A stretch of DNA of 64,000 nt from Candidatus Nitrosotalea okcheonensis. GTDB lineage: Archaea; Thermoproteota; Nitrososphaeria; Nitrososphaerales; Nitrosopumilaceae. The DNA is taken from NCBI RefSeq assembly GCF_900177045.1, contig NZ_LT841358.1, positions 955,396-1,019,395 on the forward strand, read 5' to 3'. The position numbers and the translations under genes were made by a program. Shown here in pieces: positions 5,670 through 22,174 of this stretch. Below the pieces are notes generated by a model. The model saw only the letters and a program-made list of their open reading frames with translations. It was not told where the DNA came from and made no database searches. Position 1 is the stretch's first letter. Every line of letters starts with the position of its first letter.

Positions 5670-8600
5670 TCAATGATTGACAGAATATACATCACCACCA
5701 TAAATGTTTGATGAATCAGATGCGATCATGATATTGCCAGAGTCATATACTTTGATCGTTCCAGACAATGGAAAGTGATATTGTCCAACATCAAGGCGTG
5801 CAATATGATTTACAATCTGACTTGTTGCAAGAATTTTACCTGATGAATCGGTAATATCTACTCTTGCAGCATTTTGCGGTAAGTTATTTACTGTGACATT
5901 TTCGCCTGCTAGTGTATAATAATCCGTAAATGTTCCATTTAGCATTTGTCCTGCATAAGATGACTGGGGTTCAAGAAATACATTAAATGGAGGAGGCATC
6001 TGCAGGTTCATATCAGTACGATCCACTACTTTTACTCCATCAACGTACACCCTTAGGTAATTGTTGCCATTTGTGATGATAGTACAATCTCGGGTGAGTG
6101 GCTGGTTAGGATTAGGATCATACCACAGTCTAGTGAAATTTGTAGCACTGAAAGGATTACCTGTTGCCCAAAATACGGCCCAGACTGTACCAAATGAGCT
6201 TACGTTAGATGAACATGCAACATAGTTTACATTGCTGGTTCCATTAGTCTGCACATATATCCCATTGTTGTAATAGACATTATTTGCAGGTATTGTTTGT
6301 ACAGGAGTTGTAATTATAGAGTGGTAAAGCATCGCTTGTGTGTTTCTTGACAAAGCATAGATCCCTGCCCAGGTTGCATTAGATGGAGCTTGAACTCCAA
6401 TGTGTAATCCTTGTGTATCTTTCCAAAATGTGTAATGTGCCTTTTCTGCTTGCGCATCACCACCATATCGCCAATAGCCAGGATTTGTCTGCAGTTGTTG
6501 CTGTGTTTTAGTTTCATTGGTTAGTGAATCTGATAATAACAGACCAGATTTAATCAATGTTAAAGACTGCGGGTTTGTGGTAATTACAGTACCAGATGCC
6601 TTTATCTCAATTGCAGCATCATCCCAGAGGTCTCCACTTCCGCTTGCAGTCCATCCGCATGTTGTAAGTCCTGCCGATGTCTTTACAGATGAGCTTGATG
6701 CACCAGTTATTGCGCTTGGCATGTTGATATTCCATTGTTGTGTGCACGTTGGAGAACCAAGTGTTACACCGCCATATATTGCTGGCAAGTCTAAAACCCA
6801 GCTGTTTGGATACTGGGTCGTAATGGATATGGTAGGACTGCTGGCAGCAGCATCATAGTTTGTTATATTGGTCGGTATCGGAGTTGTCTGGTCTACTCCG
6901 GAAAATGAATATGCGCCGACTACTACCGAGGTAGAGCCATCCATGGTAACAACAATGTTTCCAGTGCCAGACGGGTTTGTCAGGTACCAAAATCCAGTAT
7001 AATCATTATGAAATGAGCGTACTGCTTTTGTTAACTGTGTTCCACCAAATGTAACAGATGTAACAAATTGGTTGTTTGCAGTCACGCCTACTACAAGCAG
7101 ACGGTTGGTTCCAGTTCCGACATTAACGTTGGAAAGCGTAATCTGGTATGGTAATGAGGATACTGTACCGGATGTTGTCTTGACGCTGTTTAGTATGATA
7201 GATCCTGTCGTTGTACTACTGCTTGTAGTGGCAGACGCAGTGTTAGATGGAGAACCAGTTCCAACAGAATTGATTGCAGATACCCGGTAGGTGTAGGCAG
7301 TGTTTGGAGCAAGTCCTGTGTCAGAGTATGTTGTGGATACAGAAGCAGTATTTGCTACAACAGTAGACCATGTTATACCGCTGTCAGTAGAGCGCTCAAT
7401 CTTGTATCCTGTTATTGCAGAGCCTCCGTTGTTGGAAGGTGCAGTCCAGGACAGATTAATTTGTGATGATGATATTGCACTAGCAGTGAGGTTAGTCGGG
7501 GATTGTGGTACAGAAACCGGAGCATTTTGTGTAGTGGCAGACGCAGTGTTAGATGGAGAACCAGTTCCAACAGAATTGATTGCTGATACCCGGTAGGTGT
7601 AGGCAGTACTAGCTGCAAGACCAGAGTCAGAGTATGTTGTGGATACAGAAGCGGTATTTGCTACAACAGTAGACCATGTTATACCGCTGTCAGTAGAGCG
7701 CTCAATCTTGTATCCTGTTATTGCAGAGCCTCCGTTGTTGGAAGGTGCAGTCCAGGACAGATTAATTTGTGAGGAGGAGATGGTAGTGGCAGTAAGACTG
7801 GTTGGAGATTGTGGTACAGTGAGAGTTCCAGACGAACTAGATACAGAATACACATCACCACCATATATGCTTGCAGGACTTGATGCAATTATGGAATTGT
7901 TTGAATCATATACATCGATAGTACCGGATAGTGGAAACTTGTACATGCCGACATTTAGTATTGCAGTGCCTGCACTTACAGGAGCAGTTGCAAGAACATT
8001 TCCAGCAGTACCAATTACCTTTACCATAGCAGCATTAGAAGGATTGTTGGTAATCTTGATGTTTTCATCTGTTGTAGAATAATAATTAGAATAAATCGCA
8101 TGATCCATTGAACTGGATGACGAGTCTACCTGAACGAATGCATGAAGAGGAGTAGGCATATTCAGGTTCACAGTAGTGCTTGAAAAGACAACATTACCGC
8201 CGATGTAGACCTTGAGATAGTGGTTCCCATCAGTCATGACGGTGCAGTCATCAGTTTGAGGCAGGGAGTTTGCCGGTGGTGCATAAAGAGTAGTCCATGT
8301 AGAGCCAGCATCAGTTGATGATTGAACAGTCCAATAGTATCCAGTATTATCAGCATACGCCTGGCAGCCAACTATACCATTATAATTTGATCCCTCTACA
8401 TACAAACCAGGATTGAACACCCCATCTGGTACCGATGTATATGGAATTGTCAAGGCTGCATGAAAAAGATGTGCGTTTGCGCCAGAAGAGGCTGCATAAT
8501 AGTTAACCCACCGCCCACTGCTTGGAGCCTGTACGCCAAGATGGAGTCCTTGCGAGTCTTCATAGTAATTATATAATGTTGCAGTTCCTCCAAATGTCCA

Positions 8601-8768
8601 TCCTGCAGTGTTTCCAGTTGTGAGCGAATCAGAGGAGACAAGACCTGATTGTATCTTGCTGATAGAATTTGTAGATGCACTGACAGTACTTGTCGGTGCT
8701 ATGGTTCCAATTACGATAACCGACATTACAACCGATAATGTCAACATGATATTATGTGATCTTACCAA
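5670..8768 (-). CDS. Large exported modular surface protein with FN3 domains
   Basis: A 1032-residue protein with signal peptide (about 1-32). Order of parts: a first GGDVYSV-type module (about 35-315, ending IYGGDVYSV); two FN3 domains (about 320-515); a roughly 200-residue module starting SIILNSVKTTSG and ending DDAAIEIKASG; and a second GGDVYSV-type module (about 740-1032). The middle module is shared with the protein at 9097-12846, and stretches of the DNA are almost identical (for example 7084-7205 with 11642-11763 and 12571-12690). This points to recent recombination or conversion. No transmembrane anchor is evident at the C-terminus. A cell-surface role is inferred. Confidence 0.8.
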   Translation of the reverse strand: MVRSHNIMLTLSVVMSVIVIGTIAPTSTVSASTNSISKIQSGLVSSDSLTTGNTAGWTFGGTATLYNYYEDSQGLHLGVQAPSSGRWVNYYAASSGANAHLFHAALTIPYTSVPDGVFNPGLYVEGSNYNGIVGCQAYADNTGYYWTVQSSTDAGSTWTTLYAPPANSLPQTDDCTVMTDGNHYLKVYIGGNVVFSSTTVNLNMPTPLHAFVQVDSSSSSMDHAIYSNYYSTTDENIKITNNPSNAAMVKVIGTAGNVLATAPVSAGTAILNVGMYKFPLSGTIDVYDSNNSIIASSPASIYGGDVYSVSSSSGTLTVPQSPTSLTATTISSSQINLSWTAPSNNGGSAITGYKIERSTDSGITWSTVVANTASVSTTYSDSGLAASTAYTYRVSAINSVGTGSPSNTASATTQNAPVSVPQSPTNLTASAISSSQINLSWTAPSNNGGSAITGYKIERSTDSGITWSTVVANTASVSTTYSDTGLAPNTAYTYRVSAINSVGTGSPSNTASATTSSSTTTGSIILNSVKTTSGTVSSLPYQITLSNVNVGTGTNRLLVVGVTANNQFVTSVTFGGTQLTKAVRSFHNDYTGFWYLTNPSGTGNIVVTMDGSTSVVVGAYSFSGVDQTTPIPTNITNYDAAASSPTISITTQYPNSWVLDLPAIYGGVTLGSPTCTQQWNINMPSAITGASSSSVKTSAGLTTCGWTASGSGDLWDDAAIEIKASGTVITTNPQSLTLIKSGLLLSDSLTNETKTQQQLQTNPGYWRYGGDAQAEKAHYTFWKDTQGLHIGVQAPSNATWAGIYALSRNTQAMLYHSIITTPVQTIPANNVYYNNGIYVQTNGTSNVNYVACSSNVSSFGTVWAVFWATGNPFSATNFTRLWYDPNPNQPLTRDCTIITNGNNYLRVYVDGVKVVDRTDMNLQMPPPFNVFLEPQSSYAGQMLNGTFTDYYTLAGENVTVNNLPQNAARVDITDSSGKILATSQIVNHIARLDVGQYHFPLSGTIKVYDSGNIMIASDSSNIYGGDVYSVNH

Positions 8769-9096
8769 AACTCATTCCCCATGATTTATCATAGTCAATC
8801 TAATATCATGTCATAGAATATTTTTGGCTATGCACAAAATTATAGGTAAAATTAATCGGGATTGAAGTTACGCAATATTACTACAGTTTTCACAAGAGTG
8901 TTTGTAGAATTTATCTTGAACTCATCTAACCATAATTTCTAAAAGCTAAAACCTGTCATCAATTTGTTAAAAAAATCATCAATTGTATTCAGCCATATTT
9001 TTATCGCATCTGTAAGTTTTGCACATATTTTGAAATATAAAAAAATTCAATCAAAAAAATTACAAATTTTCTACAATGCGGATACTGCAGTCTTTC
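8769..9096. other. Intergenic region, no gene seen
   Basis: These 328 bp are strongly AT-rich and contain only short reading frames on either strand. They hold the promoter of the gene at 5670-8768 and the downstream flank of 9097-12846. I see no RNA gene or repeat. Confidence 0.5.
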
Positions 9097-12000
9097 CTAC
9101 TTGTAGTTTAGCACATTTATGTTCCCATTAAGATCCATAAAATAGAGTTTTCCATTCCACTCTTGCATGTAAATTGGAGCATCTGTCAAACCATACAATA
9201 TTGGCACAACTTGTCCTATCGGATATCCACTTGCAGGGTCTGTTGTGGATGGAGATACACTTGATGGCAACAGAGCAGCGATATTACCTACACCATAATC
9301 TCCAAAAAAGTATGCACCCTGCAGGTTTGGATATATGGTTCCATGATAGAAAGATCCAGCAGATAGTGCTTCAAGTCCAGCAGTTGGACCAGTCTGTGGT
9401 TCCACTCCCTGATGTGAGTACCAGTATAATGGAGCAGTATAGCTTGTCAGGTTTTGTGGATTGTCATAAGGTGGGCTCTCATAGTTAGGCCAACCGGCAT
9501 TTGAGCCAGCAGTGGTAAAGTCTTCAATTCGTTCCCATGTGTTAAAACCTACATCTGAGGCATATAGCTTGCCTGTCTGCAAATCTATATCAAATGTGTA
9601 CGGATTTCTTACTCCATATCCCCAAATCTCTTTTTTGATTGATGTATTGGTACTTGATACAAACGGGTTTGTACTTGGAATGGAATATAATTTGCCATTG
9701 ACCGGAGAAACAAGCGGCGTTATGCGTAATATTTTTCCTTCCAGTGTTGTCAAGTCCTGTCCAGCGGTAAATGTCCATCCGTCACCTGTTGATATGTAGA
9801 TGTTACCTTGTGAATCAAATTTTAGAGTTCCTCCATTGTGACCGTTATTGAACGCCGGAATATTTCCCAGTACGAGTTGCTCACCTACTGACTTGTCTTC
9901 CACTATATTTCCAGATGAATCAGTCATAGCATGATACCTTATCAGCTCACCCACGGTAGATCCTGATACAGTCCTTGTCACATAAAAGTAAACATATTGT
10001 GAGGCAGAAGAGATTGCCCAGTTTGGATCAAATGCGATCCCCAGCAATCCATTTGTTTCATAATTTGTTTGTAAGTTTGGCACTGTCACAAATGGAACTG
10101 TTTGTTTTACAAATTGCCCGTTTACATTCTTGAATACAATTACATTTCCAGTATTTTTTTCATTTACCATAAATGCACCAGAGCCATCCACCCCAGGACC
10201 ATTATCAGGAATAAATGCAAAATAAGCAGGGAAATTGAGTCCTGTTACGACAGATTGAGCACTGAATGCATGAGCATTTGGATCAACAGTATACAAAGTA
10301 GAAAATGCATGTCCGCTAGCATCAGATATCATAATTGTATGCGAACCAGGTGTTGCTCCACTTGGTATCGTGAAATTTCCTCCAAAGCTACCAGTAGCGT
10401 CAGATGTTATAGAAGCAGAAGGAATGATTGTAGTACCGTCAAATTTTATTGTAATAGTAGAATTTGCTGCAAAGCCATTTCCTTGACTGGCTGGAATAAG
10501 TACACTAGAGCCTGCACGACCTGTTGTTGGAAATATGTATACACGTGGTGAAACAGTGACAGATTGGCTGGCTGTATTAGCTGATGCATCATGAGCAGAT
10601 ATTGTATGTGTACCTGTAACAGATACCAAGGTAGACATTATTGCAGCAAAGTTTCCATTAGAGTCTGTTGTTATGGTTAATGGAACAGTAGAATAACCGT
10701 TATCCTGGAATCCCACCCCAAGTGTAGTATTATCATAGGATATGGTAATCTGAGAATTTGGTGCAAATTTAGTACCTGTTATTCTTACATCAGTACCTAC
10801 ATTAACTGAATTAGTGCTAAGTGAGATAGCATGAACGATAGATATTGGATTTGTAGTGGCAGATGCAGTGTTAGACGGAGAACCAGTTCCAACAGAATTG
10901 ATTGCTGATACCCGGTATGTGTAGACAGTACTAGCTGCAAGACCAGAGTCAGAGTACGTTGTGGATGCAGAAGCAGTATTTGCTACAATAGTAGACCATG
11001 TGGTACCGCTGTCAGTAGAGCGTTCAATCTTGTATCCTGTTATTGCAGAGCCGCCGTTGTTGGAAGGTGCAGTCCAGGACAGATTAATTTGTGAGGAGGA
11101 GATGGTAGTGGCAGTAAGACTGGTTGGAGATCCTGGTATAGTTACAGTACCTGATGCCTTTATCTCAATTGCAGCATCATCCCACATGTCTCCACTTCCG
11201 CTTGCAGTCCAGCTGCAGATGACCGAGCCTGCAGATGCTTGAGAGGTAGAGCTTGATGCACCAGTTATTGCACCTGCAATGTTGGCATTCCATTGTTGTG
11301 TACATGTTGGAGAACCAAGTGTAGTGCCACCATAGATAGATGCAGAATCAAGCACCCAGCTGTTTGGATACTGGGTCGTAATGGATATGGTAGGGCTGCC
11401 GGCAGCAATATTGTGATTTATCATACTGGTCGGTATCGGAGTTGTCTGGTTTACTCCGGAAAATGAATATGCGCCGACTACAACAGAGGTAGAGCCAGCC
11501 ATGGTAACAACAATGTTTCCAGTGCCAGACGGGTTTGTCAGGTACCAAAACTCTGCATCGTTGTTAGCAAATGATGCCGCTTTGTTTGTTAGTGGCACTC
11601 CTCCAAATGTGACGGACGCTACGTTGTTGTTGTTTGCCTCAACGCCTACTACAAGCAGACGGTTGGTTCCAGTTCCGGCATTAACGTTGGAAAGCGTAAT
11701 CTGGTATGGTAATGAGGATACTGTACCGGATGTTGTCTTGACGCTGTTTAGTATGATAGATCCTGTTGTGGTACCACTACTTGTAGTAGCAGACGCAGTG
11801 TTAGATGGAGAACCAGTTCCAACAGAATTGATTGCTGATACCCGGTATGTGTAGACAGTACTAGCTGCAAGACCAGAGTCAGAGTACGTTGTGGATGCAG
11901 AAGCAGTATTTGCTACAATAGTAGACCATGTGGTACCGCTGTCAGTAGAGCGTTCAATCTTGTATCCTGTTATTGCAGAGCCGCCGTTGTTGGAAGGTGC

Positions 12001-12846
12001 AGTCCAGGACAGATTAATTTGTGAGGAGGAGATGGCAGTGGCAGTAAGACTGGTTGGAGATCCTGGTATAGTTACAGTACCTGATGCCTTTATCTCAATT
12101 GCAGCATCATCCCACATGTCTCCACTTCCGCTTGCAGTCCATCCACATGTTGCAAGTCCTGCCGATGTCTTTACAGATGAGCTTGATGCGCCAGTTATTG
12201 CGCTTGGCATGTTGATATTCCATTGTTGTGTGCACGTTGGAGAACCAAGTGTAGTGCCACCATAGATAGATGCAGAATCAAGCACCCAGCTGTTCGGATA
12301 CTGGGTTGTAATGGATATGGTAGGGCTGCCTGCAACAGTATTGTGATTTGTAATACTGGTCGGTATCGGAGTTGTCTGGTTTACTCCGGAAAATGAATAT
12401 GCGCCGACTACTACCGAGGTAGAGCCAGCCATGGTAACAACAATGTTTCCAGTGCCAGACGGGTTTGTCAGGTACCAAAACTCTGCATCGTTGTTGGAGA
12501 AGGTGGATGCTTTGTTTGTTAGTGGCACTCCTCCAAATGTGACTGATGCTACGTTATGGTTGTTTGCCTCAACGCCTACTACAAGCAGACGGTTGGTTCC
12601 AGTTCCGACATTAACGTTGGAAAGTGTAATCTGGTATGGTAATGAGGATACTGTACCGGATGTTGTCTTGACGCTGTCTAGTATGATAGATCCTGTCGTT
12701 GTACTACTGCTTGTAGTGGCAGACGCAGTGTTAGGCAATAAAGACAAAGGATTTACGGAAATGACATTTGTTGGAAGCATCAGCAAAATTGCAAAAATGA
12801 CAAATATGCCAAATACTGAATATGATTTTTTAACATACCTTACCAT
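9097..12846 (-). CDS. Exported FN3 protein with C-terminal glucose/sorbosone dehydrogenase-like propeller
   Basis: A 1249-residue protein. A signal peptide (about 1-30) runs directly into the tail end of an FN3 domain (NTASATTSSSTTTG). Two copies of a roughly 205-residue module (SIILDSVKTTSG to DDAAIEIKASG) alternate with two FN3 domains. Two Ig-like segments (about 675-850) follow, then a glucose/sorbosone dehydrogenase-type six-bladed propeller (about 860-1249). Its diagnostic motifs are GLLGIAFDPN, HNGGTLKFD, IYISTGDG and EIWGYGVRNPYTF. In the family this domain oxidises sugars with PQQ at the cell surface; whether it is active here is unknown. The abrupt fusion of signal peptide to a partial FN3 suggests assembly by recombination. 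Confidence 0.82.
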   Translation of the reverse strand: MVRYVKKSYSVFGIFVIFAILLMLPTNVISVNPLSLLPNTASATTSSSTTTGSIILDSVKTTSGTVSSLPYQITLSNVNVGTGTNRLLVVGVEANNHNVASVTFGGVPLTNKASTFSNNDAEFWYLTNPSGTGNIVVTMAGSTSVVVGAYSFSGVNQTTPIPTSITNHNTVAGSPTISITTQYPNSWVLDSASIYGGTTLGSPTCTQQWNINMPSAITGASSSSVKTSAGLATCGWTASGSGDMWDDAAIEIKASGTVTIPGSPTSLTATAISSSQINLSWTAPSNNGGSAITGYKIERSTDSGTTWSTIVANTASASTTYSDSGLAASTVYTYRVSAINSVGTGSPSNTASATTSSGTTTGSIILNSVKTTSGTVSSLPYQITLSNVNAGTGTNRLLVVGVEANNNNVASVTFGGVPLTNKAASFANNDAEFWYLTNPSGTGNIVVTMAGSTSVVVGAYSFSGVNQTTPIPTSMINHNIAAGSPTISITTQYPNSWVLDSASIYGGTTLGSPTCTQQWNANIAGAITGASSSTSQASAGSVICSWTASGSGDMWDDAAIEIKASGTVTIPGSPTSLTATTISSSQINLSWTAPSNNGGSAITGYKIERSTDSGTTWSTIVANTASASTTYSDSGLAASTVYTYRVSAINSVGTGSPSNTASATTNPISIVHAISLSTNSVNVGTDVRITGTKFAPNSQITISYDNTTLGVGFQDNGYSTVPLTITTDSNGNFAAIMSTLVSVTGTHTISAHDASANTASQSVTVSPRVYIFPTTGRAGSSVLIPASQGNGFAANSTITIKFDGTTIIPSASITSDATGSFGGNFTIPSGATPGSHTIMISDASGHAFSTLYTVDPNAHAFSAQSVVTGLNFPAYFAFIPDNGPGVDGSGAFMVNEKNTGNVIVFKNVNGQFVKQTVPFVTVPNLQTNYETNGLLGIAFDPNWAISSASQYVYFYVTRTVSGSTVGELIRYHAMTDSSGNIVEDKSVGEQLVLGNIPAFNNGHNGGTLKFDSQGNIYISTGDGWTFTAGQDLTTLEGKILRITPLVSPVNGKLYSIPSTNPFVSSTNTSIKKEIWGYGVRNPYTFDIDLQTGKLYASDVGFNTWERIEDFTTAGSNAGWPNYESPPYDNPQNLTSYTAPLYWYSHQGVEPQTGPTAGLEALSAGSFYHGTIYPNLQGAYFFGDYGVGNIAALLPSSVSPSTTDPASGYPIGQVVPILYGLTDAPIYMQEWNGKLYFMDLNGNINVLNYK

Positions 12847-15518: not shown

Positions 15519-15782
15519 ATGATGATAACACATAGTTCGCTATCACATGTACACAATGACTCTGAAGAAGAGCACCATCCCCATTTTTTGGGGACAATAG
15601 AAAAAAAACATTTGCGCGAGCAAAAGATTACACAGAAGAAGATCAGTTTTTGCATTCCAAGATGTCATGCATGTAAAACTGAGATGCAATTTACAGAAGG
15701 AGAAGTAATTTATGGCGAAAGATGGTATCATAGTTCATGTTGGAAAGACATAGAAGAAGTAATAGAACTGGCATCTCATTAA
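15519..15782 (+). CDS. Small zinc-binding protein (LIM-like half)
   Basis: An 87-residue soluble protein. The C-terminal half has CHACKTEMQFTEGE, then YGERWYHSSCWKD, a CxxC...HxxC set of ligands like half a LIM or treble-clef finger. The N-terminal half is acidic and His-rich (HNDSEEEHHPH). A later in-frame start is possible because the first 20 residues carry little information. It lies about 100 bp upstream of the gvpD-like gene on the same strand, but a connection to gas vesicles is only positional. Confidence 0.6.
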   Translation: MMITHSSLSHVHNDSEEEHHPHFLGTIEKKHLREQKITQKKISFCIPRCHACKTEMQFTEGEVIYGERWYHSSCWKDIEEVIELASH

Positions 15783-15882: not shown

Positions 15883-17319
15883 ATGACAGAAGTAGGAAGT
15901 TATCAACTCACAGGTGACAAAGTTAAGATTCCATTAGAGTTGGCTCATTTCCTAAGGCAGGAAACATATTCGCTGCTTATCAAAGGACATACGGGAACTG
16001 GAAAGACAACACTTGCGCTCAGCATATTGAGGAAATTAAACATTGACAGAAATTGCTTATACATTTCAACGCGAGTTTCTCCAGACCAGCTTTTCCAGTA
16101 TCATACATGGATGGATGGATTTTTCAACCAGCCAAAAAAAATAGATGCCCCCCTAGATGCACCTGAAGAGGAAGAAAACATTCATCCTACATTTGTGGAT
16201 GCCAGACTTGATGAACCAGTTACACTTTTTGAGCGTATTACAAATGAGTTGATGGATGTAAGGGCTCCAATCATTATCATTGATTCATGGGATTCCATAG
16301 GATGTTTCATGGACAAGGAAGCATCAATGAGTAATTCCAAAGTACTACAAACTTGGAGAGAGCGAGCAGGTGCAAAATTAATTTTTGTTACAGAGAATCC
16401 AGAAGACAGGGCACTGGATTTTTTGGTAGATGGTATAGTAGAGCTCAGACAAAAGTATCACAATGAGCGAATAATACGTGAAATTAGACTATCCAAACTG
16501 CGCGGAGTCAGAATAAACAAGCCCTCATACATATTTTCAGTCAACAACGGTATGTTCCATAGTTATGACCACTACCACCCATCAGAGTTTCTAAATCCTG
16601 CACGTTTTCTCCAGCCCAAAGATAATGTCAGAAGAGATTTGATCAAAACCAAGTCTCATTTTACCACAGGATATCCAGAATTAGATGAAATGTTGGGTGA
16701 CGGATTTCCAACAGGATGCGCAGTTAGTGTAGAACTTGGGCCCCATGTAAGCGCCAATGTCGCACTTGCCTTTCTATGCAAAATAATTACAAATTTTATT
16801 GCAAGTGAAAATCTCTTTTTATTCCAACCTCTTGAAAAAACTGGTCAGGGTGTCATACTACAGTACGCCAAATCGCTCGGTTTGCAGAGTGATTTGATAA
16901 AAATTATTTCATCTACTACTCAACCAAAACAATCAACTGCCACCCTCAGAGATAATCCAAATAAACATCTAGATCATATACGCCAAGAAATACAAAAAAT
17001 CAAGAAAAAACACCCAAAAAAGATGTTACTTACAATACTTGGTACAGAGGTGACAGATTTATTTTCAAAAGATCCAAGTAAGCAGGACCGCAAGTCTCTG
17101 TCATTTATAAAATCAAATTCAGATCTTTCTATTTTTGTCTCAAGACGCCTGCCGGATAACAGGCATACCATCATGTCAGATATTGTAGACGTGCGTTTAC
17201 TCATAGTTGAGATTGACGGAACGCTGTGTCTCCAGTCAGAAACACCATGGTCTCACCTCTATGCAATTACTACATCGCCTGAAAATGACAATGAAATCAA
17301 TTTAGGTCCGATAGTCTAG
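15883..17319 (+). CDS. gvpD: GvpD/KaiC-type P-loop ATPase, likely gas-vesicle regulator
   Basis: A 478-residue protein with a RecA/KaiC-like ATPase fold. Walker A GHTGTGKTT is at residues 35-43, and a Walker B strand IIIIDSW at about 127-133. The second half (from about residue 260, TTGYPELDEMLGDGFP) looks like a further RecA-like domain in which the P-loop is degenerate (ELGPHVSANVA). Haloarchaeal GvpD has a similar P-loop and length and represses gas-vesicle genes through GvpE. No gvpE is seen here, so its partner could be the adjacent kinase and regulator. The gvpD assignment rests on the fold and on lying 1.6 kb upstream of gvpA; a generic RAD55-like ATPase is the alternative. Confidence 0.62.
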   Translation: MTEVGSYQLTGDKVKIPLELAHFLRQETYSLLIKGHTGTGKTTLALSILRKLNIDRNCLYISTRVSPDQLFQYHTWMDGFFNQPKKIDAPLDAPEEEENIHPTFVDARLDEPVTLFERITNELMDVRAPIIIIDSWDSIGCFMDKEASMSNSKVLQTWRERAGAKLIFVTENPEDRALDFLVDGIVELRQKYHNERIIREIRLSKLRGVRINKPSYIFSVNNGMFHSYDHYHPSEFLNPARFLQPKDNVRRDLIKTKSHFTTGYPELDEMLGDGFPTGCAVSVELGPHVSANVALAFLCKIITNFIASENLFLFQPLEKTGQGVILQYAKSLGLQSDLIKIISSTTQPKQSTATLRDNPNKHLDHIRQEIQKIKKKHPKKMLLTILGTEVTDLFSKDPSKQDRKSLSFIKSNSDLSIFVSRRLPDNRHTIMSDIVDVRLLIVEIDGTLCLQSETPWSHLYAITTSPENDNEINLGPIV

Positions 17320-17394: not shown

Positions 17395-17491
17395 CATAGT
17401 GCTTAATATCCATATACAGCAAATCATTATTATCCATGCCAAGACAAAAAATACGAAAAAAACAGACAGTAACTCCTGCTTGAACAAAAAC

Positions 17492-18304
17492 ATGTCAAAT
17501 AATTTTTCCCAATTGGTTTTTGATAAGACAATAACGAAATCAAAGTTATCCCTTGACAAAGCACATACTTTTAATGCTGATGAAACGTTAAAACACAGTA
17601 AAATTCAGGACGAGTTTGTCAACATTGCAAGTCATGAAATAAAAACTCCTATCCAGTCCATATTGACATATTCCGAGCTGCTTCATTCCAATCCCAATGA
17701 AATTCATCAGGAATACATTGAGGCAATATACAGAAACGCGCTTAGACTCCAGAGATTATCCAAAAATCTTTTAGATGTTACAAAGATGGAGAACCACACT
17801 TTCACACTACAAAACGAAAAGTTTGATATCAATGAGCTTATTTTATCAACAATACAGGATTTTGTAACACGTGCACATAATTCAGGCATAAAAACTAGGA
17901 ATGTACAATTTTTGTTTTCTCCAAAGGGACGCATTTTGGCATATGCGGACAAGGATCGTATCGCTCAAGTGATATCAAATTTGATAGACAATGCCTTCAA
18001 ATTTACTCAAAGGGGAAATATTTCAACAAATGTAACCAAACAAAATGACAGGATAATTGTATCTGTTAGCGACAGTGGTATCGGCATAAATTCACAGATT
18101 GCTTCAAGATTATTTTCAAAGTTTGTCACATCCTCTGAAAATGGCATAGGACTTGGCCTATACATTGCAAAAAACATTGTTGAGGCTCATGATGGAAAGA
18201 TTTGGTTTCAAAATAATCCTAATAGAATTGGCGCTACAATTTCATTTGAAATACCATCCAAGATACGCACAAACTATCTAGCAAATCATCAGGTGTTACA
18301 GTAA
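17492..18304 (+). CDS. Soluble sensor histidine kinase of the gas-vesicle locus
   Basis: A 270-residue cytosolic histidine kinase without membrane segments or a recognisable sensor domain. The H-box is FVNIASHEIKTP (His48 from this start). The N-box region DNAFKFT, the G1-box VSDSGIGI and the G2-box GIGLGLYIAK of the HATPase follow. I chose ATG at 17492; an upstream in-frame GTG at 17399 would add 31 residues of low-complexity sequence unlike coding sequence. It stands 30 bp before a single-domain response regulator, forming a two-component pair between gvpD and gvpA. Signal and target are unknown. Confidence 0.85.
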   Translation: MSNNFSQLVFDKTITKSKLSLDKAHTFNADETLKHSKIQDEFVNIASHEIKTPIQSILTYSELLHSNPNEIHQEYIEAIYRNALRLQRLSKNLLDVTKMENHTFTLQNEKFDINELILSTIQDFVTRAHNSGIKTRNVQFLFSPKGRILAYADKDRIAQVISNLIDNAFKFTQRGNISTNVTKQNDRIIVSVSDSGIGINSQIASRLFSKFVTSSENGIGLGLYIAKNIVEAHDGKIWFQNNPNRIGATISFEIPSKIRTNYLANHQVLQ

Positions 18305-18334: not shown

Positions 18335-18706
18335 ATGAAAAAGATTCTAGTTGTTGATGATGAACCTGATATTACCACATCTGTAAGAAACGGATTGGAA
18401 CGAAAAGGATTCGAAGTCCACACACACAATGATCCTTTAAAGGCACTTGAAAATTTCAAGCCAGATGTGTACGATTTGATGCTAATAGACATCAGAATGC
18501 CCAAGATGAGCGGTTTTGAATTATATCGTGAAATTAAAAAGAAAAATGAGGGTAAAACAAAAATCTGTTTTTTTACTGCATTTGAAGTGTATTATGAGGA
18601 ATTTAGAAAAATGTTTCCCAACCTGGAAGTAAAATGTTTCATACGAAAACCTATCACAATTAACGATCTGGTGACACATATTAATTCAGAACTGGAAAGA
18701 AAATAA
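18335..18706 (+). CDS. Single-domain response regulator (CheY-like receiver)
   Basis: A 123-residue receiver domain with the acidic pair Asp8-Asp9 (ILVVDDEPD), phospho-acceptor Asp52 (LMLIDIRMPKMSG), the conserved Thr in CFFTAF and the Lys in FIRKPI. There is no DNA-binding output domain, so it must act by protein contact, possibly with the GvpD-like ATPase or a general regulator (inference). It is 30 bp downstream of the histidine kinase and about 180 bp before gvpA. Confidence 0.9.
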   Translation: MKKILVVDDEPDITTSVRNGLERKGFEVHTHNDPLKALENFKPDVYDLMLIDIRMPKMSGFELYREIKKKNEGKTKICFFTAFEVYYEEFRKMFPNLEVKCFIRKPITINDLVTHINSELERK

Positions 18707-18885: not shown

Positions 18886-19107
18886 ATGTCACAACAACAA
18901 ATGTACAGACCCATGCTGAATATCTACGATCTGGTAGACAGAATATTAGACAAGGGTTTAGTCATTGATGCAAACTTATCTGTGTCTCTTGTAGGAATTG
19001 AGATCCTAGTCATAAGAGCAAGAATAGTTGTCTCGGGAATTGACACCTTCCTACGATATGCATCAGCATTAGGACTTGCCGCACCACCAGGACTACCGCC
19101 CAAGTAA
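18886..19107 (+). CDS. gvpA: Gas vesicle structural protein GvpA
   Basis: A 73-residue protein with the full GvpA core: IYDLVDRILDKG, VIDANLSVSLVGIEIL, ARIVVSGIDTFLRYA. The helix-strand-strand-helix arrangement forms the ribs of the gas-vesicle wall in all known gas-vesicle makers. Length is normal for the family; the C-terminal tail is short and proline-rich. It is the first gene of a tight group (gaps or overlaps of under 25 bp) running to 22174, and has a good Shine-Dalgarno sequence. Confidence 0.92.
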   Translation: MSQQQMYRPMLNIYDLVDRILDKGLVIDANLSVSLVGIEILVIRARIVVSGIDTFLRYASALGLAAPPGLPPK

Positions 19108-19125: not shown

Positions 19126-19377
19126 TTGGCAGTATGTCTAGTTTGCGGCAAATTTACGGACATGGGCCTGAAAAAAGCAATGAGTGCAGGATGGGTCTTT
19201 ACAAGATGTCCAGAATGTCAGCGTGGAACTCCACTTGATATCATAGTATCACACCTGTTGAAAACAGTTGGAGAGGAATATTTAGAGGGATTTTGTGAGA
19301 GGCACTGGTTCAAGGATAGCGGAATTTGTGGTTACTGCAAGATGAAACGAGAGGGATCAACTGAGAGTGTCGGCTAG
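19126..19377 (+). CDS. Novel two-site zinc protein embedded in the gas-vesicle operon
   Basis: An 83-residue soluble protein with eight likely zinc ligands: CLVC (residues 4 and 7), CPEC (28 and 31), CERH (about 56-59) and CGYC (about 68-71). I do not recognise it as any known Gvp protein. It begins at TTG 19 nt after gvpA and its 3' end overlaps the next gene by 11 bp, so it is probably translated with the operon. A role as assembly factor, chaperone or redox or metal sensor for vesicle formation is possible but is inference. Confidence 0.75.
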   Translation: MAVCLVCGKFTDMGLKKAMSAGWVFTRCPECQRGTPLDIIVSHLLKTVGEEYLEGFCERHWFKDSGICGYCKMKREGSTESVG

Positions 19378-19615
19378 ACAATTAGCTCCTCAGCAGCTAA
19401 CCATAGTAGATCTGGTTGATAGAATTTTAGATAAAGGTGTAGTGATAACCGGAGATATCACCATTTCAGTCGTAGGAGTAGATCTGCTTTCATTAAAAAT
19501 AAATTTGGTAATAGCATCGTTGGAGACAGCAAAAAGATACGGAATAAAACTTCCCTGGGAAAAATGGGACAAGATACAGCCAAAAAAAATAAGCGGAAAA
19601 AACAGTAAGAGGTAA
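19367..19615 (+). CDS. gvpJ: GvpA-family minor gas vesicle protein, GvpJ/GvpM type
   Basis: An 82-residue GvpA-family protein: IVDLVDRILDKGVVI, ISVVGVDLLSLKINL, IASLETAKRYG, with a basic tail ending KISGKNSKR. The VGVDLLSL pattern and charged tail are closer to the minor proteins GvpJ/GvpM than to the rib protein GvpA. These minor proteins help nucleate or cap vesicles. Start is GTG at 19367, overlapping the zinc gene. J and M cannot be told apart reliably from sequence alone. Confidence 0.8.
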   Translation: MSARQLAPQQLTIVDLVDRILDKGVVITGDITISVVGVDLLSLKINLVIASLETAKRYGIKLPWEKWDKIQPKKISGKNSKR

Positions 19616-19623
19616 TCAGACAG

Positions 19624-20103
19624 TTGCAAAGATCTAAAATGCAAATTTCTGAACCTGCACCAGAACAAATTAATCTTGATAGTGATAAACTCCAGAAGGG
19701 ACTTGCAAAGTTAGTTCTTGTAGTAGTTGAATTGCTAAGACAAATTCTAGAGCGCCAAGCTCAAAGAAGAATCCAGTCAGGAAGTTTAACATCAGAAGAG
19801 GTCGAGAGGCTTGGCATGGCATTCATGCAGATAAAACAAAAAGTTGCACAGATATCAGACCAATTTGGCCTAAAACCAGATGAACTTGACGGTACTCTCA
19901 AAGGCATGCTCAAAACTACAGATTCCCAGATTGCCAAGACATCACTTGTTGATGTACTTGATAGTCTTCTAGTGAAGGGCGTAGTCCTAGGCGGAAGTGT
20001 AACTGTTTCTGTTGCAGACATTGACCTCATAACACTTGATCTTCTTGCCACACTTTCTGCAATCCCTGGCACTCGCAAGACTAGGAAAAAGAAAAATGGT
20101 TGA
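19624..20103 (+). CDS. gvpK: GvpK fused to a C-terminal GvpA-family domain
   Basis: A 159-residue protein. Residues about 15-90 match GvpK (LQKGLAKLVLVVVELLRQI, LERQAQRRIQSG, SEEVERLGMAFM, QFGLKPDEL). After a short linker, residues about 108-148 form a GvpA/J/S-like unit (SLVDVLDSLLVKGVVLGG, VSVADIDLITLDL). GvpK and a GvpA-family protein are normally encoded by separate genes, so this looks like a gene fusion. The TTG start at 19624 is favoured by GAGGT 11 nt upstream; ATG at 19639 is the alternative. The 3' end overlaps the next gene by 8 bp. Confidence 0.85.
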   Translation: MQRSKMQISEPAPEQINLDSDKLQKGLAKLVLVVVELLRQILERQAQRRIQSGSLTSEEVERLGMAFMQIKQKVAQISDQFGLKPDELDGTLKGMLKTTDSQIAKTSLVDVLDSLLVKGVVLGGSVTVSVADIDLITLDLLATLSAIPGTRKTRKKKNG

Positions 20104-20827
20104 TGGTAAGTACCTCTATTGTGTAAAAGAGGGATCCAAAAATCATCGCTTCAGTGATGCCGGATTATTTGGAAAACAGGCATATATCATCACCTACAAA
20201 GACATTAGCGCCGTAGTGAGTAACATACCATTCAAAGAGATGCAACCAGATGTAGAAAACCTCACGGCGCATCAGAGAGTAATAGAGGAGTCAAGATCAC
20301 TTGGTACAACTCTGCCAGTCAGATTTGGAATAATGTTCAAGACAGATGACGGCGTGAAAAAAATGCTAGTCAAATCATATGCGGACCTAAAATCCAAAAT
20401 CGTAAAGCTCAGAGACAAAGATGAGTTTGGCGTGAAAATAATCATGGACAAATCAGATCTTAAAAAGATCTCATTGATACAACATGATAATCAGGATATC
20501 GAGAAGATAAAAAAAGAGATCTTGTTGGCAGGCGAGGGAACTTCATATTTTCTTAAAATGAAGCTGGATGAAGCAATCAAGAACCAGACATATAAAAAAA
20601 TAGACCAGATAAGCGGGCAGATTCACAATGAAATTACAAAGGCCTCAGAGGACAAATGTCTTTTAAAATCAGATTTTGATGAAATAATTCTAAATGCTTC
20701 ATACTTGGTAGATCGCGATCAGAGCACCAAGTTTCATCAAAAGATAGACAATCTCAAGAAAAAGTATGAGAGTGCCGGTTTTATTTTTCACCTTAGCGGA
20801 CCATGGGCACCATATTCGTTTTGTTGA
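20096..20827 (+). CDS. gvpF: Gas vesicle protein GvpF/GvpL family
   Basis: A 243-residue protein of the GvpF/GvpL family. It has the start KYLYCVKE, the segment ISAVVSNIPFKEM, the family motif LTAHQRVIEE, then LPVRFGIMF, and the C-terminal LSGPWAPYSF that closes the family's second domain. GvpF/L proteins bind GvpA and sit at the gas-facing or nucleating tip. It is the only F/L gene in the cluster, whereas haloarchaea have both F and L. ATG at 20096 overlaps gvpK by 8 bp, implying translational coupling. Confidence 0.9.
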   Translation: MVDGKYLYCVKEGSKNHRFSDAGLFGKQAYIITYKDISAVVSNIPFKEMQPDVENLTAHQRVIEESRSLGTTLPVRFGIMFKTDDGVKKMLVKSYADLKSKIVKLRDKDEFGVKIIMDKSDLKKISLIQHDNQDIEKIKKEILLAGEGTSYFLKMKLDEAIKNQTYKKIDQISGQIHNEITKASEDKCLLKSDFDEIILNASYLVDRDQSTKFHQKIDNLKKKYESAGFIFHLSGPWAPYSFC

Positions 20828-20837
20828 GGCCAGACAA

Positions 20838-21050
20838 ATGATAATAACAGCTTTAATTTTGAAATTGACTCTTGGATCAATCCTAAATGAATGCAATAGG
20901 ATTGCTGCAGAACAACAATCAAAAGATCAAATCAGGTGGTTAAAATCAAGATTACTCAATCTTAGACTAGAATACCAAAAGGGAATAATCGACGAAGAGA
21001 CATTTAACAAAATGCAGGTTGACATCCTAAAGGATTTGGGAAGGACTTGA
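20838..21050 (+). CDS. gvpG: Gas vesicle protein GvpG
   Basis: A 70-residue helical protein whose C-terminal half has the GvpG pattern QIRWLKSRLLNLRLEYQKG followed by IDEETFNKMQ, and ends LKDLGR. GvpG is a small accessory protein usually next to gvpF, as here (10 nt gap). I start at ATG 20838 rather than upstream codons that would overlap gvpF. The N-terminus ALILKLTLGSIL is hydrophobic, as in other GvpG proteins. Its stop overlaps the TTG start of the kinase gene as TTGA. Confidence 0.8.
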   Translation: MIITALILKLTLGSILNECNRIAAEQQSKDQIRWLKSRLLNLRLEYQKGIIDEETFNKMQVDILKDLGRT

Positions 21051-22174
21051 CAGACACTTCTGACGAAACAAATAGGGCAACACTTCATGCCATTCAGGTA
21101 AAAAACATTCAAAAGCACATAAGAGAGCAAGTTGAGAAAGTAAAGGGGGATGCATTTGCCGCACGTGAAGAAACAGTGCATAAAAGAGCAGAGAAAATAG
21201 AACAAGTTAGAGAAAAATTGAACCAGACAACTCTTGACATACAACACAAACATGAAATGATAAGAGAGAGATTAAACCAAGAGGCAGTATTTAGAGAAGC
21301 AAACATCAGAGTAAGCAGAGGTCTTGAGGCACTTGAAAAATTTATTCAGGTTTTAAGAGATACTCAGATGGAAGATGAGATGCTTAAAAAAGCAATTCGA
21401 GATCCGATAATATCGGGTTCCTTAAAATCAGATGCAATGAAGATCATAACATCGGAATTCTTTAGATCCATTCAAAAACAGCTTGTAATGCAAACAGAAT
21501 TTATCAACATAGCAGCTCATGAACTGCGCACGCCAATCATGCCAATACTTGTAAATATAGAACTATTAGAAGATCAATTAGGAAAAGACAATCCAGAAAT
21601 TAAGATCATAGCAAGAAATGCAAGAAGACTCCAGCGTCTTACTGAAAACATATTAAGCGTTGCAAGGTTAGAAAGCAAATCGTTTACACTAAAGACTGAA
21701 GTTTTTAATTTAAACGATATAATTTTAGCAGTAATAAAAGATGAATCAGTCCAGTTAAGCAATGACAACATAGACATAGCATATGAAACAGATACTAAAA
21801 ACATACAAGTGGATGCAGACAAAGACAGAATTGCTCAGGTCATATACAATTTGTTGCACAATGCAATCAAGTTCACCGATATGGGAAAGATTGTCATTAC
21901 TTCAAAACATGCAAAAGACTGCGTAGAAGTAAGTGTGAGCGATAACGGAAAAGGCATAGATCCAAAAATAATTCCAATATTATTTTCCAAGTTTGTAACA
22001 AAATCAGACAAGGGAACAGGACTTGGCTTATACATATGCAAGGGAATTATTGAGGCTCATGGTGGTAAAATATGGGCTGAACCCATGTTAGAAAAACGAC
22101 AGGGAGCCAAATTCTGCTTTTCTCTACCTATGCGATCCAATATCGATTCCCCTGATCACAGCATGACTAGATAA
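21047..22174 (+). CDS. Soluble histidine kinase with long N-terminal coiled coil, coupled to gvpG
   Basis: A 375-residue kinase without membrane segments. Residues about 15-140 are charged and helical with heptad-like spacing, predicting a coiled coil. The HisKA H-box FINIAAHELRTP (His158) follows, then the N-box HNAIKFT, VSDNGKGI, and GTGLGLYICKG of the HATPase. The catalytic half resembles the kinase at 17492-18304, so the two are paralogues. TTG at 21047 overlaps the gvpG stop, so expression is probably coupled to vesicle genes. No response regulator follows; the nearest is at 18335-18706. It could sense vesicle state or feed back on the locus (inference). Confidence 0.85.
   Translation: MTDTSDETNRATLHAIQVKNIQKHIREQVEKVKGDAFAAREETVHKRAEKIEQVREKLNQTTLDIQHKHEMIRERLNQEAVFREANIRVSRGLEALEKFIQVLRDTQMEDEMLKKAIRDPIISGSLKSDAMKIITSEFFRSIQKQLVMQTEFINIAAHELRTPIMPILVNIELLEDQLGKDNPEIKIIARNARRLQRLTENILSVARLESKSFTLKTEVFNLNDIILAVIKDESVQLSNDNIDIAYETDTKNIQVDADKDRIAQVIYNLLHNAIKFTDMGKIVITSKHAKDCVEVSVSDNGKGIDPKIIPILFSKFVTKSDKGTGLGLYICKGIIEAHGGKIWAEPMLEKRQGAKFCFSLPMRSNIDSPDHSMTR

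Follow-up and report, generated by a model that had tools for sequence, protein, structure and literature searches.

What is the small cysteine-rich protein encoded between gvpA and gvpJ in the gas vesicle (gvp) cluster of this archaeon, and does it take part in assembly or in sensing? The window, a stretch of 64,000 nucleotides from a genome that forms one contig of 1.97 Mb and has its relatives among the Nitrososphaeria, carries at 19126..19377 on the forward strand an ORF with a TTG start, encoding a protein of 83 residues that we name ZNP in this analysis. The initial annotation had read this ORF as a protein with four CxxC/CxxH-type pairs, lying between gvpA and a gvpJ-like gene and overlapping the latter by 11 bp, and had offered it as a candidate new assembly factor or sensor. 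To our knowledge, gas vesicles have not been seen in Nitrososphaeria with these gvp genes, and the vesicles of these archaea are putative. A passage of earlier work names ‘Ca. N. gargensis’ as then the only genome-sequenced thaumarchaeote with gas vesicle genes (PMC3835317), and part of a later reconstruction includes gas vesicle formation genes among its listed gene families (PMC7554672). In the portions of the literature that were searched, we found no description of a zinc protein of gvp clusters matching ZNP.

A conserved protein with eight candidate zinc ligands

The four pairs are present in the window protein as C4xxC7, C28xxC31, C57xxH60 and C68xxC71 (MAVCLVCGKF, CPEC, CERH and CGYC), so that three CxxC and one CxxH supply eight candidate ligands in a protein with seven cysteines and two histidines in total and a near-neutral pI of 7.6. 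Shuffling ZNP's own composition produced four such pairs in 11 of 200,000 trials; since the ORF was originally picked for its cysteine pairs, we give more weight to conservation. In an alignment of 21 homologues, none of the eight ligands varies, and they fall among 28 invariant columns out of 83 (hypergeometric p about 8e-5), and invariant aromatic residues are found at W23, F25, F56, W61, F62 and Y70. Four conserved ligands per site, as in zinc-binding proteins, are thus found across the 21 sequences, and the ligand pattern makes it likely that ZNP binds zinc at two candidate sites.

Complete ZNP ORFs were collected from 26 loci (L001–L025 and L036, the last of which came from a contig pattern scan and lies outside the 28 genomes that the class search described below picked out); three further loci, ending at a contig end (L026), in a run of N (L027) or with frame breaks after residue 32 (L028), stand outside the full-length counts. 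Leaving out five near relatives, 21 of the 26 complete sequences form the search profile (A2). The closest named relative, from a ‘Candidatus Nitrosotalea sp.’ MAG, is 96% identical. With partial loci counted, the start codon is TTG at 26 of 29 loci and ATG at the other three. Compared pairwise with 19 homologues, the window gene gave a saturated dS in eight pairs and a finite dS in 11, with dN/dS between 0.02 and 0.18; because many of these 11 lie near saturation, we rely on the three with dS <1, which give 0.04 (L002), 0.07 (L004) and 0.18 (L036). The ZNP ORF is a real gene under purifying selection.

Neither the window protein nor the 21 family members matched any Pfam or NCBIfam model significantly, and the matches listed include no Gvp family, in line with the initial annotation's remark that the protein resembles no known Gvp; in sequence, it belongs to none of the named families (A/J/M, F/L, G, K, N, O, D). 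A search of solved structures gave best E values of 0.84 with the single sequence and 0.87 with the profile, neither meaningful. AlphaFold models made from 11 ZNP sequences were poor (mean pLDDT 47.7 and 50.3), and for this reason we neither predict the fold nor judge the site geometry.

The genes around ZNP, all on the forward strand, form a compact cluster. The stop codon of gvpA (18886..19107; PF00741, E 2.2e-13; best NCBIfam GvpA match 1.6e-22, below cut-off), which encodes the major shell protein, lies 18 bp before the ZNP start. The gvpJ-like gene of the A/J/M family (19367..19615; PF00741, 1.9e-16; top NCBIfam match halo GvpJ, 2.7e-14, below cut-off) begins with a GTG at 19367, which confirms the 11-bp overlap, and its product has no cysteine. 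There follow a gvpK whose product carries a fused GvpA/J/M-like domain at its C terminus (19624..20103; PF05121, 8.5e-25, and PF00741, 1.4e-10), a gvpF/L that is the sole match in its own genome (20096..20827; PF06386, 4.9e-56) and a weakly matching gvpG-like gene (20766..21050; PF05120, E 0.00049, below the curated cut-off), which is conserved in place and has an uncertain start, similarity to relatives beginning near residue 24 at most loci. The GvpK fusion also occurs in other ZNP clusters, as well as in one genome with gvp genes and no ZNP (G398).

A histidine kinase gene (21047..22174) shares 4 bp with the gvpG-like ORF and lies directly downstream of the cluster in all nine loci L031–L039; two-component signalling may be linked to the expression of the gvp genes or to assembly. 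Upstream of gvpA are a KaiC/GvpD-like P-loop ATPase (15883..17319; PF06745, 1.1e-16; PF07088 GvpD P-loop, 1.9e-15), a probable regulator, a second histidine kinase (17399..18304; PF02518, 8.3e-26) and a response-regulator receiver domain (18335..18706; PF00072, 5.5e-24). Adjoining the ATPase gene is that of a second small zinc-finger-like protein (15519-15782, forward strand; C-x2-C-x17-H-x2-C, weak Prok-RING_2 match at E 0.085), which we take to be half-LIM-like and whose pattern is kept in L031, L032, L033, L034, L037 and L041. In Nitrosotalea sp. FS (L041, 2159-4206), the GvpD-like gene appears as several overlapping match pieces and may be broken or misassembled. Further upstream, reading by eye suggested a secreted-looking protein of 1249 residues with internal repeats on the reverse strand (9097-12846).

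This arrangement is kept well beyond the window. The order gvpA, ZNP, gvpJ, gvpK/M, gvpF/L, gvpG and histidine kinase is found in nine of nine loci (L031–L039), and the order as far as gvpG in L040 and L047 and likewise in L042, where gvpJ is lost in a run of N; L041 stops inside ZNP, and L046 has no detectable gvpG. The order gvpA-ZNP-gvpJ is common to three families of Nitrososphaeria. The gap between gvpA and ZNP is 13-24 bp in 25 of the 26 complete loci and 102 bp in L019, and a gvpJ start codon overlaps the end of ZNP in all 26, with an 11-bp overlap in 21 and, in the other five, a start 8 bp before the ZNP end together with more upstream candidates.

Co-occurrence with a reduced gvp gene set

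The initial annotation had proposed a homologue search and had held that homologues mostly found in genomes without gvp genes would count against a gvp-linked protein; we found the opposite. Convincing ZNP homologues (E <= 4.3e-11) are present in 28 of 400 genomes of the class, and all 28 carry gvp genes (PF00741), which occur in 31 of the 400; the three gvp genomes without ZNP are G275, G278 and G398. Fisher's test gives p 5e-40 for this association across genomes that are related and not independent. Given that kinship, comparison within the window's genus is the better control: all 32 genomes are concordant, 13 with both, 19 with neither and none with one alone (p 3e-9), indicating that shared ancestry alone is insufficient to explain the co-occurrence. 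In a sample of 250 genomes of the phylum searched with profile A2, all five genomes with a convincing ZNP have gvp genes, a sixth hit (G034; E 0.007) is interrupted by stop codons and has no gvp, and one further gvp genome (G400) lacks ZNP. The contig pattern scan, which reaches close relatives only, yielded 12 ZNP loci, all from Nitrosotalea, Thaumarchaeota, Nitrososphaeraceae or Nitrososphaera. In G120, separate contigs (C10 and C15; L019 and L046) carry two gvp clusters whose GvpA sequences have diverged, and each cluster includes a ZNP of its own.

Three marginal hits in class genomes without gvp genes (G198, G353 and G395; E 9e-4 to 9e-3) were excluded from the count of convincing homologues, and the loci of two were inspected. 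We rejected both: the G395 locus (L029) holds a different short CxxC zinc-ribbon-like ORF, and the ORF of G353 (L030) continues from a zinc-ribbon-like part into a helix-turn-helix-like protein, presumably MBF1-like.

Small CxxC proteins are common in archaea, and ZNP might accordingly be a general zinc-ribbon housekeeping protein that sits in the gvp cluster by chance. We regard this as very improbable. No convincing homologue appeared outside gvp genomes in the 400 class and 250 phylum genomes, nor any relative in 72,556 plasmids, 50,697 phages or a viral contig scan, and the reading is largely refuted by the co-occurrence of ZNP and gvp. Membership of the gvp cluster and co-occurrence with gvpA, the features of an accessory Gvp protein, are both found for ZNP. 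On these sequence grounds, ZNP would be a lineage-bound and previously unnamed accessory gene of a reduced gas vesicle cluster, and the core idea of the initial annotation, a novel gvp-linked protein, is supported.

The reduction itself is visible in the gene content. Searched for GvpO (PF05800) and GvpN (TIGR02640), the 31 gvp genomes of the class sample yielded both in just two cases, G275 and G278 (GvpN as open frames of 321 and 362 residues, GvpO as open frames of 95 and 100); both were absent from all 28 ZNP genomes and from G398, a contrast that involves only two GvpN/GvpO clusters in the class and is confounded with lineage. G398, the third gvp genome without ZNP, has neither GvpN nor GvpO, nor the GvpJ tail described below. 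For GvpF/L (PF06386), 14 of the 31 genomes were sampled: the 11 ZNP genomes have one per cluster, G120 having two copies for its two clusters, and those without ZNP have two (G275), two (G398) and three matches, of which two share a frame (G278). With no GvpN or GvpO and a single GvpF/L per cluster, the ZNP cluster is therefore a six-gene set: gvpA, znp, gvpJ, a gvpK/M fusion, gvpF/L and gvpG.

According to passages of two papers, GvpO is essential in Halobacterium, and enlargement of the vesicle requires GvpN (PMC9501494, PMC11445434). One of them, a review, describes both as accessory proteins that bind GvpA and lists gvpN among the genes conserved in all gvp clusters; yet a Streptomyces cluster in its table has gvpO and lacks gvpN (PMC9501494), so that a cluster lacking one of the two is already known. 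A gvp cluster without both was not described in the parts of the literature covered by our search. It is possible, though doubtful, that ZNP took over the jobs of both GvpN and GvpO; soil ammonia-oxidising archaea and their relatives would then build a gas vesicle, or a protein compartment derived from one and serving another purpose, with a minimal set of six genes in which a zinc or thiol switch on GvpJ replaces the AAA+ ATPase and GvpO.

Zinc modules beside GvpJ and the proposed role of ZNP

A connection to GvpJ emerges from clusters with and without ZNP. At all 26 complete loci, the GvpJ beside ZNP has no cysteine, whereas the GvpJ-like proteins of the ZNP-less G275 and G278 end in a C-terminal zinc ribbon (CPxC-x14-CPxCGW), a tail for which no significant Pfam or NCBIfam model was found. 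G400, also without ZNP, has two zinc-tailed GvpJ-like proteins in a cluster with GvpN and GvpO. Tailed GvpJ without ZNP, taken together with cysteine-free GvpJ beside ZNP, suggests that a zinc module accompanies GvpJ either in cis or in trans. This is not universal: neither arrangement is present in G398 or in the haloarchaeal clusters L053, L054, L057 and L058, as no CxxC was found in the GvpJ tails of these haloarchaeal clusters and ZNP is absent there too.

Zinc-tailed GvpJ-like proteins are also encoded in Natronococcus occultus, Natrinema zhouii and Streptomyces sp. SGAir0924, where they belong to small J-K-L clusters with no gvpA, gvpN or gvpO listed in the regions examined. These mini clusters (L089, L090 and L091; about 6970-9580), from two haloarchaea and one Streptomyces, hold a zinc-tailed J, K, L and a second J-like gene, each with a TetR-type regulator gene, and are perhaps not for gas vesicles.

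We propose, with moderate confidence, that ZNP is a zinc-stabilised assembly adaptor for GvpJ, dedicated to the compact six-gene gvp cluster of Nitrososphaeria, and that, jointly with GvpJ, it probably contributes to building the gas-filled compartment. Residues 4-31 would fold as a C4 zinc ribbon and residues 57-71 as a C3H zinc knuckle, leaving the invariant aromatics available for contacts. Given the overlap of the two genes, ZNP would be made beside nascent GvpJ; it could then keep hydrophobic GvpJ/GvpA-type proteins soluble and dock them on a GvpF/L-K-G assembly complex, serving in trans as the GvpJ zinc-ribbon tail might serve in cis in other clusters. The co-occurrence, fixed position, purifying selection, eight invariant ligands, gvpJ overlap and absence of GvpN and GvpO are consistent with such a role.

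The alternative raised by the word sensor is that ZNP regulates gvp expression, either in the manner of Brz or as a thiol/zinc redox switch responding to oxygen or metal state. The two histidine kinases, response regulator and GvpD-like ATPase that flank the cluster would suit this, as would the conserved TTG start, which could mean low expression, and small zinc-finger regulators do occur in archaea, Brz being described in parts of two papers (PMC5496347, PMC6523106). These regulators lie outside the structural genes, however, while ZNP lies inside them, between gvpA and gvpJ and overlapping the latter, and it keeps this place where the flanking regulators differ (L040, L046 and L047). Moreover, no helix-turn-helix or other DNA-binding family in Pfam or NCBIfam was significant for ZNP, and its near-neutral pI also speaks against a regulator, a role that we consider unlikely. 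Rather less probable still is a redox-active holding chaperone or co-chaperone of the Hsp33 or DNL (Zim17/Tim15) type, acting through cysteine chemistry or by binding general chaperones and not through GvpJ. zf-DNL (PF05180) is the commonest weak Pfam match of the family, reported at E <= 10 for 15 of 21 members (best E 0.012), although these members are relatives and the matches hence not 15 independent results; the window protein itself scores 13.7 bits (E 0.063), well short of the curated 27-bit cut-off, and the alignment covers residues 3-33, omitting the second, C3H site, so that we keep zf-DNL as no more than a lead. Between assembly factor and sensor, the evidence leans to an assembly factor, given the place of ZNP inside the structural genes, its overlap with gvpJ and the zinc-tailed GvpJ proteins elsewhere.

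Gas vesicle assembly is poorly understood. In a cluster that lacks both GvpN and GvpO and has a single GvpF/L besides the GvpK/M fusion, ZNP, which is always in place, is the obvious candidate for the part that lets so few genes suffice. If the cluster works, it would supply gas vesicle engineering with a very small set of genes and give a first clue as to why gvp genes persist in soil archaea. The link of zinc modules to GvpJ, whether in cis or in trans, can be tested directly.

ZNP and known systems

Several known proteins resemble ZNP in part. The Zim17/Tim15-type zf-DNL domain shares with it a C4 ribbon of similar spacing within the weak alignment noted above. Brz of Halobacterium is, like ZNP, a small archaeal zinc-finger protein encoded beside the gene it serves, but it regulates another system, bacteriorhodopsin, and the likeness is one of description only. 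GvpO and GvpN are accessory proteins like ZNP, which occurs in their absence; no sequence relation was seen, GvpN being an AAA+ ATPase and the ZNP profile matching neither. Haloarchaeal GvpC, according to passages of two papers, is also encoded right after gvpA and carries a zinc-finger motif (PMC9501494, PMC9372576), which in sequence is a C-terminal CRVC followed by two histidines. Unlike ZNP, it has one C2H2-like site ending a protein of 286-383 residues with repeats, and an origin of ZNP from this domain was not supported: run with filters off against the ORFs of L054, L055 and L059, which include gvpC, the ZNP profile found no gvpC frame at E <= 10.

The GvpJ zinc tail shares with ZNP a cysteine-pair module tied to a J-type Gvp of the same cluster, and differs in being one C4 site fused to GvpJ, where ZNP has two sites on a protein of its own. 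Aligned with hhalign, the two gave a probability of 20.5% over 13 columns, which does not amount to reliable homology, and we therefore regard their likeness as an analogy of place and part.
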